Shown here: positions 34,110-40,380 of the stretch, one piece after another
Layout of the letters: each line of letters starts with the position of its first letter
Numbering within the stretch: the stretch's first letter is position 1
From: Acidobacteriota bacterium
GTDB lineage: Bacteria > Acidobacteriota > Thermoanaerobaculia > UBA5066 > Gp7-AA6
Length of the DNA: 40,814 bases
Assembly: GCA_003222385.1 (NCBI GenBank)
Contig: QHVV01000080.1
Span: 20,129 to 60,942 of the forward strand
Reading direction: 5' to 3'
Translations under genes and position numbers: made by a program
The notes under the pieces: generated by a model
What the model was told of the DNA's origin: nothing
Seen by the model: only the letters and a program-made list of their open reading frames with translations
Database searches by the model: none

Positions 34110-36631
<2,522 letters not shown>

Positions 36632-36636
36632 GTCGG

Positions 36637-37515
36637 GTGCTGAAGACCTGCTCCCCGGCTTCGCCGCTCCCCGGAGAAGATCTCGCCGCCGAACTCGAGT
36701 CGGGCAAGATCCTCTTTTTCGCCGAGCCGCCGTTTCCGATCCCGGACCGCGAGCTCTTCAACGGCCTCGATCCGGGTCGCGCCCGTTTTCACAAGAACAT
36801 CGCTTACCGTCCCGCCAGCCGCCGCCTGACGGGGGCGTCCGGCATCCCGTCCGGTCAGCGGGCGCCTCTGCGATCGGCGCTGGAGCGATACTCGTCGAAC
36901 GCCGTCTCGTTCCTGGCCCGCCTCTTTCCACGCTACGCGCCGGCCTGGCGGATCGACTACGCGAGCTTCCGGCCGTTCGAGGAGGAGGGCCGCCCGCTGT
37001 CGCCGAAGGCGAGAAACGACCTGGTCCACGTGGACTCGTTTCCGAGCCGCCCGACCGAGGGCGACCGCATCCTCCGTTTCTTCACGAACGTCCACCGAGA
37101 GAAGCCGCGCGTGTGGATCTCGGGCGGGACGTTCGACCGTCTGGCGGAGCGGTACGCGGTCGCCTCGGGGATCCTCCCGCACGTCACGGCGATCCGGCCT
37201 CCGGGGGTGCTCGCCCGGGCTCTCGCCGCGGTCGGGTTGCGCAAGGGCATCCGGTCCCGGTACGACGAGTTCATGCTGCGCTTTCACGACTACCTGAAAG
37301 AGAACGAGGAACTGCAGGCGGAGGCGCGCCGGGAGCCGTTCTCCTTCCCGCCCGGATCGACGTGGATCGCCTACACCGACATGGTGAGTCACGGCGTCCT
37401 CTCCGGGCAGTCCGCCCTGGAGCAGACGATGATCATCTCGAAGAGCACGATGGCGCTCCCGGAGAAGGCGCCGATCGCGATCCTGGAACGGTTGTCCGGT
37501 GAGCCGCTCGCGTAG
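36637..37515 (+). CDS. kdoO: Kdo hydroxylase family protein (KdoO-like dioxygenase)
   Basis: This 292-residue protein starts at GTG 36637, 5 bp after ahcY. It matches the Kdo_hydroxy family: GKILFFAEPPFPIPDREL near the N-terminus, HKNIAYRPASRRLTG, the iron site NDLVHVDSFPSRPTEGDRILRFFTNVH (H-x-D), a distal SHGVLSGQSALEQT with the second His, and the closing AILERLSGEPLA. These Fe(II)/2-oxoglutarate enzymes convert Kdo in LPS inner core to Ko (3-hydroxylated Kdo), which stiffens the outer membrane. It supports an LPS-bearing organism. The family match is strong; activity on Kdo is inferred. Confidence 0.88.
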   Translation: MLKTCSPASPLPGEDLAAELESGKILFFAEPPFPIPDRELFNGLDPGRARFHKNIAYRPASRRLTGASGIPSGQRAPLRSALERYSSNAVSFLARLFPRYAPAWRIDYASFRPFEEEGRPLSPKARNDLVHVDSFPSRPTEGDRILRFFTNVHREKPRVWISGGTFDRLAERYAVASGILPHVTAIRPPGVLARALAAVGLRKGIRSRYDEFMLRFHDYLKENEELQAEARREPFSFPPGSTWIAYTDMVSHGVLSGQSALEQTMIISKSTMALPEKAPIAILERLSGEPLA

Positions 37516-37543: not shown

Positions 37544-38077
37544 TCAGAGGTGGAAGCCGAGCCCGGCGTCGACGAAAGCGACGACCTGCCGCGGGTGGTA
37601 AGGGGCGTAGTGGACGTCGAGCTCGGTCCACACCGAGAAGTGCTTCCAGATCGGGAAGCCGCGGAGCAGCGAGACGTGCGGGCCCCAGCGGTGGTCGAAC
37701 GTGCGGTGGCCGCTTTCCGTGCGCGGCGGCGAAGCTTCCTCGAACCGGACGAACCCGATTGCAACGTCCGCCGGAAGAGAGGTCAACCTCCGGGTCAGGA
37801 CTCCGTCCAAGCCCAGATAGTCCAGATCGTCGTCCCCGACGCGGCGGGGCAGATTCTTTTCCCGCTCGAGCGACCCCTGGAGGTAGCGGATCCGGATCCG
37901 GTCGCCGGCGAACGTCACGGCGAGGGCACCGAACTTGTGACCTTCGACGTCGCGGTCGGCGCTCGCGAACAACGACCCGACGCCCCCTCCTCCCCAGAGC
38001 GAAACCGTCTCGGAGAGGGCGCGGGGACAGAGCGCCGTTGCGAGCAGAAGCGCGAGAGATGCGCTCCTCCGGTTCAC
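37544..38077 (-). CDS. Hypothetical outer-membrane beta-barrel-like protein
   Basis: The protein has 177 residues. GTG 38077 gives a signal peptide (NRRSASLALLLATALCPRALS). The mature part is a series of short amphipathic strands ending in FVDAGLGFHL, with a terminal aromatic pattern common in outer-membrane barrels (GPHVSLLRGFPIWKHFSVWTELDVHYAP). It resembles small acyloxyacyl-hydrolase/PagL-like or generic opacity-type barrels, but I cannot place it. It converges on kdoO (28 bp) and follows the LPS-export gene, so an envelope role is plausible. Confidence 0.65.
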   Translation of the reverse strand: MNRRSASLALLLATALCPRALSETVSLWGGGGVGSLFASADRDVEGHKFGALAVTFAGDRIRIRYLQGSLEREKNLPRRVGDDDLDYLGLDGVLTRRLTSLPADVAIGFVRFEEASPPRTESGHRTFDHRWGPHVSLLRGFPIWKHFSVWTELDVHYAPYHPRQVVAFVDAGLGFHL

Positions 38078-38097: not shown

Positions 38098-40380
38098 TCA
38101 GGTCCGCAGGCGCGCGAGCAGGAAGGCCGCGCCGGTCGAGAACAGGACGTGCGGTGACCAGGCGGCGAGCGGGGGAGGCAGGGCTCCGACGTCTCCCAGC
38201 TTCGAGAAGAGGGCGCTCGCGATCAGGAAGACCATCCCGAGCACGAGCCCCACTCCGATTCCGGCGAGCGTCCCGCGCCTGCCGATCCGGAACGCGAAGG
38301 GGATCCCGAGCAGAGCCATCAGGGGAACGAGCAGCGGCCGCGCGATCTTCGACTGGAGCGCTGTCTCCAGCGAGGCCGTCGGGTATCCGCTCCGCTGGAG
38401 CCGCCGCGTGAAGCGCTGGAGCTCGCGGAACCGCATCTCCTCGGGGGTCCGGTGTTCGGCGGAGAACGCCGGGGGCGGATCGCCCGCCGTCCTCTCTTCC
38501 AGGAACGTCGCGAAGGAGATCGTCTCGCCTCCCGAGAGCTCCCGCGTCCAGCCCTGCCGGAGAACCCAGGTCCGTGAGTCGGCGTCCCACGTCGCTTCAC
38601 GCGCGGACGTCCGTCGCACCAGGTCGAACTCCCGGTCGAACTGATAGATCGACGGCGAGGCGAGCGCTCGCCCGGCCTCGCTCTCCTCGCGGTGCCAGAT
38701 CCGACCGTCGCGCGCGTAATACCAGTTCCGCTCGGAGGGCGTCCGCAGCTTCCAGTCGGCGGGATGTCCCGCGATCCGGTTGCGATAGCGGATCTCCTTC
38801 TGCTTGGCGATCGGGAGGGCATATTCGCCGATCGAGAAGGCGAGGAGCGCGCCGACCGCGGCTGCCACGAAGATCGGCGCTCCGAGACGACGGACCGAAA
38901 CGCCGCCCGCCTTGAAAGCCGTGTCCTCGTTGTTCCTGGAGAAGATCCCGAGGCTGACGAGGGTCGCGATGAGGACGGCGAACGGCGCCAGCTCCATCGC
39001 GATCGACAGGAGAAAAGCCTGGTAGTACCCGACGACCACGACTCCGGGCGGCTTGTTCGTCAGGATCTCGTCCGCCTTGTCCGAATAGTCGACGACGACC
39101 GAAAGGAGGAGGACCGATGCGAAAACGTAGAGGAGCGTCGAGAAGAAGCGGGCGAGCACGTACCGATCCATCAGAGCCGGAAACCGCAGGATCCCGCCGA
39201 GCCAGGCGCGGCGGGAGGATTCCACCGCGGCGGCGGGGGCTCCGCGGCGCCGGAGCTTCCAGGTCCACCGGCCGCGCTCCTTCCCGGAGCGCCGCGCTGC
39301 GACGAGACCGAGCCCGATCAGCACGAGGTTGGGGAGCCACATGGCAAGCGCCGGGCTCATCCTTCCGTCCTCGGCCCACGACTCTCCGTTGGAAATCAGG
39401 ACGTAGTACACGACCAGGATCGCGAGAGAGATCGCGAAGCCGCTGCCCTTTCCGCCGCGGCGAAACGTGTCGGCGAGCGGGATGCCGACGAACGCAAAGG
39501 CGAAGCACGCGAACGGAATCGAGAACTTCTTGTGGATCTCGACGAGCGCCAGGCGGCGTCTCTCCGGGGACACGTTGCGCTGCCGGACGACCTGGAGGAG
39601 CTCCGGCAGCGACTGGGCGCGCAGACCCTTCTCGTAGGTGATTCGCGACTGGACGGCCTCCTCGATGTCCTCGGAAAAAAGGATCCGCTGGAACTCGTTG
39701 CGATTCGTGCGATAGCGCGACGGATTGGCGGGATCGACGTCGTGGACGACCGAAGCGAAGAGGTCGAGCCAGAGCCGGCCGTGATCGAGCGCGAGCGCAC
39801 CCCGGCGGGCGACGATGACCCGGTCGTTCCTCTCGTCGTCCTCGCCGAGCTTCAGGAAGACTCCCTCGAAAGACCGGCCGTCGACACCGATGCGGTCGAA
39901 GAAAAGCGTGACCCCGGCTCGCGGCTCGCGAAAGGTCCGGGGCTCGACGAGGTTGACGACCGAGGTCGCCGCGAGCCGTGCCATCGACCTCGTCAGCGCT
40001 TCGTTCGCTCGGGGCAGCACGAGGTTGTAGAAGAGAAACACCCCGGCCGAGAGAAGTGCCGCGGCGCCGAGCGCCGGCCGGTAAACAGCCCAGGGGCCCA
40101 CGCCGCAGGACCGCATCGCGACGAGCTCCGAGTCGCCCGAGAGCCGTCCGATCCCGATCAGGACCCCGAGCAGGAACGCCATCGGCAGCGTCAGCACGAG
40201 AATCCACGGAATCGATAGGAGAACGAGCCAGCCGACCTCGGAAAGCGATGCGCTGCGCCGCACAAAGAACTCCGTCATCAGGAAGATCGTCCGCACGAGC
40301 AGGATGAACGTGTAGGCCGCGAACCCCAGCAGGAACGGCGGCCAGATCTCTCGGACGACGGACCGGGAGAGGAGCCTCAT
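38098..40380 (-). CDS. Fused LptF-LptG lipopolysaccharide-export permease
   Basis: This 760-residue protein consists of two YjgP/YjgQ permeases in one chain. Residues 1 to about 365 are LptF-like (MRLLSRSVVREIWPPFLLGFAAYTFILLV, GRLSGDSELVAMRSCGVGPWAVYRP, and the closing helices ISLAILVVYYVLISNGE). A basic linker (about 366-400) leads to an LptG-like half starting MDRYVLARFFSTLLYVFASVLLLS, with the periplasmic domain and closing GIGVGLVLGMVFLIASALFSKLG. Together with LptB they form the ABC motor that pulls LPS from the inner membrane toward LptC/A. Usually lptF and lptG are separate genes of about 360 codons each. No stop or frameshift separates the halves. ATG 40380 matches the family start. 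Confidence 0.92.
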   Translation of the reverse strand: MRLLSRSVVREIWPPFLLGFAAYTFILLVRTIFLMTEFFVRRSASLSEVGWLVLLSIPWILVLTLPMAFLLGVLIGIGRLSGDSELVAMRSCGVGPWAVYRPALGAAALLSAGVFLFYNLVLPRANEALTRSMARLAATSVVNLVEPRTFREPRAGVTLFFDRIGVDGRSFEGVFLKLGEDDERNDRVIVARRGALALDHGRLWLDLFASVVHDVDPANPSRYRTNRNEFQRILFSEDIEEAVQSRITYEKGLRAQSLPELLQVVRQRNVSPERRRLALVEIHKKFSIPFACFAFAFVGIPLADTFRRGGKGSGFAISLAILVVYYVLISNGESWAEDGRMSPALAMWLPNLVLIGLGLVAARRSGKERGRWTWKLRRRGAPAAAVESSRRAWLGGILRFPALMDRYVLARFFSTLLYVFASVLLLSVVVDYSDKADEILTNKPPGVVVVGYYQAFLLSIAMELAPFAVLIATLVSLGIFSRNNEDTAFKAGGVSVRRLGAPIFVAAAVGALLAFSIGEYALPIAKQKEIRYRNRIAGHPADWKLRTPSERNWYYARDGRIWHREESEAGRALASPSIYQFDREFDLVRRTSAREATWDADSRTWVLRQGWTRELSGGETISFATFLEERTAGDPPPAFSAEHRTPEEMRFRELQRFTRRLQRSGYPTASLETALQSKIARPLLVPLMALLGIPFAFRIGRRGTLAGIGVGLVLGMVFLIASALFSKLGDVGALPPPLAAWSPHVLFSTGAAFLLARLRT

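Follow-up and report, generated by a model that had tools for sequence, protein, structure and literature searches.

The window, by which we mean the whole stretch of 40,814 nucleotides analyzed here from an Acidobacteriota bacterium, encodes both LptF and LptG, each of them complete, in a single reading frame (Table 1). The translation of this open reading frame (ORF) runs uninterrupted, with 0 stop codons between the two halves, and the Pfam family LptF_LptG (PF03739) matches the product in two stretches with a summed score of 493.8 bits. Residues 4-362 match the NCBIfam LptF model TIGR04407 with 309.1 bits (cut-off 230), and residues 404-757 match the LptG model TIGR04408 with 347.5 bits (cut-off 240). 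In addition, a profile built from 41 fused proteins and compared with the PDB (E <= 0.001) matched 18 distinct sequences, the first half taking 10 of 10 LptF sequences and the second half 8 of 8 LptG sequences. A preliminary description of this DNA had claimed two complete permeases in one frame, joined by a basic linker of about 35 residues; the first claim is borne out by the score of each half above its own NCBIfam cut-off, with the exact coordinates confirmed, and the linker was measured at 37 residues with a net charge of +8.

Table 1. Coordinates in the window of the fused gene, its two halves, the linker and the coupling-helix glutamates
Feature	Position	Strand	Remarks
Fused LptF-LptG (LptFG)	38098..40380	-	760 aa; ATG at 40380, stop at 38098-38100
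LptF half, residues 1-364	39289..40380	-	TIGR04407; six long helices, beta-jellyroll between helices 3 and 4 (AlphaFold2)
Coupling-helix glutamate E85, LptF half (= E. coli LptF E84)	40126..40128	-	Aligned to position 84 of 7efo_F
Linker, residues 365-401 (37 aa), net +8	39178..39288	-	Between LptF and LptG profile ends; predicted disordered
LptG half, residues 402-760	38101..39177	-	TIGR04408; six long helices (third in two pieces) and beta-jellyroll (AlphaFold2)
Coupling-helix glutamate E485, LptG half (= E. coli LptG E88)	38926..38928	-	Aligned to position 88 of 6mit_G

The neighbourhood of lptFG includes, at a distance of about 0.6 kb, a gene for a Kdo hydroxylase, which modifies the LPS core (36628..37515, plus strand; PF11004 Kdo_hydroxy, 268.7 bits) and is mentioned here as context only. 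The ORF of about 174 residues between the two genes (37544-38068, minus strand) has no Pfam match at E 0.01; its similarity to the outer-membrane protein family PF17251 is below threshold (13.1 bits, cut-off 22.4).

The AlphaFold2 model, which was run on a 41-row alignment of fused proteins (pLDDT 85.7, pTM 0.79), predicts for each half the LptF/LptG permease fold, in which a periplasmic beta-jellyroll is inserted between the third and fourth of six helices. Residues 2-373 of the model align with the LptF chain 9doh_F (Z 25.7, rmsd 3.4 A, 352 residues; VIA-align), and residues 400-759 with the LptG chain 6mjp_G (Z 25.9, rmsd 4.5 A, 352 residues; VIA-align). The fold by itself cannot separate LptF from LptG, as four G-labelled chains (6s8h, 6mhu, 7efo and 6mi7) find their best alignment in the first half of the model. 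The preliminary description had reasoned that an even number of transmembrane helices in the first half would keep the second half correctly oriented, and the six long helices predicted there agree with this expectation; because there are six helices per half, the linker would connect two termini that both face the cytoplasm. The coupling-helix glutamates of both halves are invariant in alignment A1 (17 rows) and in alignment A2 (41 rows), and for this reason both ATPase docking sites seem to be kept. The E. coli counterparts of these residues are shown to be central to LptB coupling in PMC5082905.

Within the linker, residues 371-399 have pLDDT values below 50. Of the 53 fused loci chosen for comparison, 52 have a linker of net positive charge; the median values are 51 residues and +7 in Acidobacteriota and 47 residues and +8 in the phylum that contains Rokubacteria. 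The one exception, locus L157, has a computed linker of 3 residues with charge 0, probably because the boundary of LptF was placed too far downstream. Separate tandem pairs, which occur in Nitrospirota, in the phylum of Trichlorobacter and Geobacter and in part of the Rokubacteria-containing phylum, share the gene order and orientation of the fused genes (all 32 pairs studied are in tandem on one strand) but consist of two ORFs, and the distance from the end of the LptF domain to the start of the LptG domain is shorter than the fused joint, with a median of 27.5 codons (range 8-66, n=32). A start codon near the LptG boundary is found in all 32 separate pairs and in just 19 of the 53 fused loci. 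Likewise, a Shine-Dalgarno-like match of at least 5/6 precedes this start codon in 14 of 32 separate pairs versus 0 of 53 fused loci, and one of at least 4/6 in 19 of 32 versus 2 of 53. In the window copy, residue 404, at the N terminus of LptG, is encoded by an ATG, and the best Shine-Dalgarno-like match upstream of this codon is only 2/6. The fusion probably originated from a tandem lptF-lptG pair that lost the stop codon and the lptG start signals and gained a longer joint.

Two alternatives to a genuine single chain have to be weighed. The gene could be an artefact of sequencing or assembly that erased a stop codon or frameshift separating two normal genes; in favour of this, the MAG of origin is fragmented (genome G000; 3.6 Mb, 231 contigs, 95.3% complete), and the start of lptFG is 434 bases from a contig end. 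We reject this reading, which the preliminary description had named as a possible refutation, as having a negligible chance of being correct, because the same open frame recurs in other assemblies. PF03739 matches are present in 38 of the 40 closest-kin genomes (G000 included), and both halves are in one frame in all 38, that is, in 37 relatives other than our own genome. The fusion is also found in genomes assembled as single contigs, namely G049 (frame of 814 residues), G065 (756), G129 (815), G153 (776) and G094 (987), and fused loci lack, at the frequencies given above, the start and Shine-Dalgarno signals that mark lptG in separate pairs. The preliminary description had also held that separate intact copies elsewhere would count against the fusion; no separate intact lptF or lptG was found in the 231 contigs of this 95.3%-complete genome, in which no other PF03739 match is above the cut-off and four further matches score 10.1-12.5 bits.

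The other alternative accepts the single ORF and supposes that LptG is also, or mainly, made from an internal start, or that the linker is cleaved; either would yield the usual two-chain complex. The ATG of the window copy lies exactly where such a start would be expected, two of the fused loci show the weaker Shine-Dalgarno-like match, and the linker, being disordered and basic, is probably open to proteases. These points are outweighed by the scarcity of start codons and Shine-Dalgarno-like matches at the boundary in fused loci relative to separate pairs, and by the poor match in the window copy itself; an internal LptG start is unsupported, and we consider the two-chain outcome very unlikely. 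Our preferred reading, to which we assign a probability of about 93%, is that the ORF encodes a single-chain LptF-LptG that would form the entire transmembrane part of an LPS-extracting ABC transporter (type VI, LptB2FG).

The survey of relatives that the preliminary description had in view indicates that the fusion is not confined to the closest kin. PF03739 matches occur in 293 of 297 genomes drawn from the phylum, and the frames among the matches listed are at least 756 residues long, except in G309, where the gene is apparently divided over two contigs, and in G051:C48, which is a single-domain second copy alongside a fused one. From this draw, 47 genomes were taken on purpose, to include families not yet listed as well as odd cases, and both halves are present in one frame of at least 747 residues in 44 of the 47; the exceptions are the split gene of G309 and one fragment each in G219 and G257. 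Among the matches listed, a PF03739 match within a frame of that size is found in one or more genomes of 79 of the 80 numbered families, family f11 being absent among these matches, and entries known from the draw alone often show just one of the two matches. Fused LptFG looks like the usual arrangement across the phylum Acidobacteriota. Viral relatives of fused LptFG were sought and none was confirmed.

An alignment-based scan of contigs gives a similar picture: the best 80 of 95 relatives comprise 68 fused loci, 11 loci with separate ORFs and one (L108, from a Rokubacteria MAG) that is cut by a contig end. These relatives are mainly Acidobacteria MAGs, many of them labelled Thermoanaerobaculia, which places the window in Acidobacteriota and probably in the class Thermoanaerobaculia. 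The 11 separate-ORF loci belong to records titled Geobacter, Geobacteraceae, Trichlorobacter, Deltaproteobacteria and Nitrospirota. Some fused loci also carry other titles, such as 'Deltaproteobacteria' (L043) and Candidatus Fischerbacteria (L094), the latter pairing with an Acidobacteriota sequence in our tree with a support of 100.

LptF-LptG fusions are also present in at least two phyla beyond Acidobacteriota. In the phylum of L108, 68 of 70 genomes have a match, and both fused and separate genes are common among the matches listed; 25 loci chosen from this phylum comprise 14 fused, 10 separate and 1 partial. In the phylum of the Trichlorobacter locus L107, which we take to be Desulfobacterota, 69 genomes were searched and the fusion is present in 3 of the 65 with a match (G491, G497 and G512). 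The Nitrospirota record L114 represents a phylum in which 71 genomes were searched; 67 have a match, and in none of these are both halves in one frame.

Whether these fusions share one origin was addressed with an unconstrained tree of 85 concatenated LptF and LptG sequences, from which L122 was omitted as partial. The fused proteins of the Rokubacteria-containing phylum form a clade (support 100) whose sister group consists of the separate pairs found in that phylum (92) and which stands apart from Acidobacteriota, with a split support of 87 and with one Acidobacteriota fusion, L149, on the wrong side. Long-branch attraction may account for the position of L149, which groups with two sequences from Nitrospirota (support 79). 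On the opposing view, a single old fusion would be common to Acidobacteriota and the Rokubacteria-containing phylum, through ancestry or transfer. An approximately unbiased (AU) test in which all fused proteins were forced together does not reject this view (p = 0.302; log-likelihood difference 4.96, 80 sequences, 714 columns, after the five divergent sequences L147, L148, L149, L150 and L153 had been dropped), and the linkers of the two groups are similar in median length and charge. The sister relationship of the fused Rokubacteria-phylum clade to its own phylum's separate pairs rather than to Acidobacteriota argues against it, as do the three fusions in the Trichlorobacter phylum, which suggest that fusing recurs. 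We hold a single shared origin of the two large groups to be rather unlikely, and several independent fusions to be likelier.

The genome of the window also encodes the expected partners of an Lpt exporter. A cognate LptB is represented by one match above the cut-off (349 bits; G000:C122:12662-13372), and LptD by a match of 70.6 bits. LptC and LptA are found together in one 658-residue ORF (L178:4511-6487, minus strand, equivalent to G000:C122:13511-15487), with the LptC domain at residues 97-197 (51.1 bits, cut-off 38) and the LptA domain, separated from it by a long stretch, at residues 524-652 (73.5 bits, cut-off 71.7); downstream of this ORF come lptB and rpoN. In a survey of 30 relatives (our own genome included), 26 give a match, 16 of these over at least about 580 residues in one frame, and G006 shows the LptA end only, in a frame of 168 residues. 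The presence of the LptB, LptD, LptC-LptA and Kdo hydroxylase families suggests that LPS is the substrate of LptFG.

Compared with the LptB2FGC LPS exporter, for which structures are available from Escherichia, Klebsiella, Enterobacter, Vibrio, Acinetobacter and others, both subunit folds are alike, and the F-then-G order, the coupling-helix glutamates and the occurrence of LptB, LptC, LptA and LptD in the genome are common to both. The difference is that a 760-residue chain with a 37-residue basic linker takes the place of two chains of about 355-375 residues each. Type VI ABC transporters share six plus six transmembrane helices according to the part of PMC8386196 concerned, and here the 6 + 6 would be on one chain; a table in the same source gives LptB2FG(C) as '6 + 6 Heterodimer', the entry 'Single chain' standing in the type V row. 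The two separate chains by which LptB2FG is described are replaced here by one open frame with no internal start signal, and we therefore class LptFG as a single-chain variant rather than as an ordinary two-chain member.

Most likely, judging from these family assignments, the protein would work like an ordinary LptB2FG whose membrane part is one chain. The disordered basic linker, presumably cytoplasmic, would tether LptF to LptG, and two LptB ATPases would dock at the two coupling helices of the chain. ATP-driven collapse of the cavity would then push LPS onto the LptC/LptA beta-jellyroll bridge, in a cycle presumed to be that of E. coli. The fusion would fix the F:G ratio at 1:1 and prevent F-F and G-G pairing, a presumed benefit to stoichiometry. 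A more far-reaching version, which we put forward as unlikely, is that Acidobacteriota have a phylum-wide Lpt machine with a reduced number of chains (LptB and one LptFG chain, together with one LptC-LptA chain in the genome of the window), in which the obligatory F-G linker, lying at the cytoplasmic foot of the gate between LptF-TM5 and LptG-TM1, would by that position alter gating or regulation beyond the saving of a subunit; on this view, fusion would have recurred in other phyla because a tied heterodimer is selected for. This gate is the site of LPS entry and of residence of the LptC helix, according to a passage of PMC10094684.

Fused LptFG conflicts with the published absence of these proteins: an outer-membrane gene survey describes lptF and lptG as 'apparently lacking in Acidobacteria' (PMC8871954). 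The fusion offers a possible explanation, in that LptF and LptG would be present and joined in one chain, and, if this is true, an odd absence would be removed from the argument on the origin of the outer membrane. An LptF/LptG permease has been noted in an acidobacterial MAG, in a passage that does not mention a fusion (PMC8787282). Among the titles and opening lines of abstracts listed by full-text searches, whose scope takes in few, if any, subscription papers or preprints, none describes a natural LptF-LptG fusion. The significance of the present case, a conserved single-chain LptFG that looks functional, lies in its apparently phylum-wide occurrence and in the conflict with the published absence; the mechanism is not new. 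In addition, a natural single-chain LptFG with fixed F:G stoichiometry may be useful for structural work and for studying the division of roles between the halves, and fused lptFG may serve as a marker gene architecture for a phylum.

Several loci depart from the common form. Among the 38 kin genomes, G010 has a shorter frame of 559 residues with a partial LptF, as at a contig end, and G002 has a partial LptG match. In this close relative the fused gene (L018 and L037, G002:C74) loses homology, within the same frame, from about residue 682 onward, a pattern that resembles a frameshift near the 3' end; row L018 was excluded from the profiles of LptF and LptG. Three loci of the Rokubacteria-containing phylum have frames of 1125-1145 residues and were considered as triple fusions; the additional residues precede the start of LptF and, judged by eye, look like chance open frame. 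In the same phylum, a 702-residue frame (G342:C275:4412-6475) holds LptF, 18 bases and an LptG match that begins at profile position 28, and it is either a misassembly or a fused protein whose LptG has a shortened N terminus. Members of the Acidobacteriota family f33 (for example, G065:C1:1647827-1650034, which is L147, and G129, which is L148) are strongly diverged yet still fused, their PF03739 matches being broken into 3-4 pieces of low score. In some Acidobacteriota genomes a separate LptF/LptG-like pair or a single-domain copy is present in addition to the fusion, at G039:C21:12684-14797, G051:C48:17344-18399, G157:C53:540-1595 and G268:C32:1876-2919, with a weak one in G094, and G054 apparently contains two fused copies (C134 and C163).
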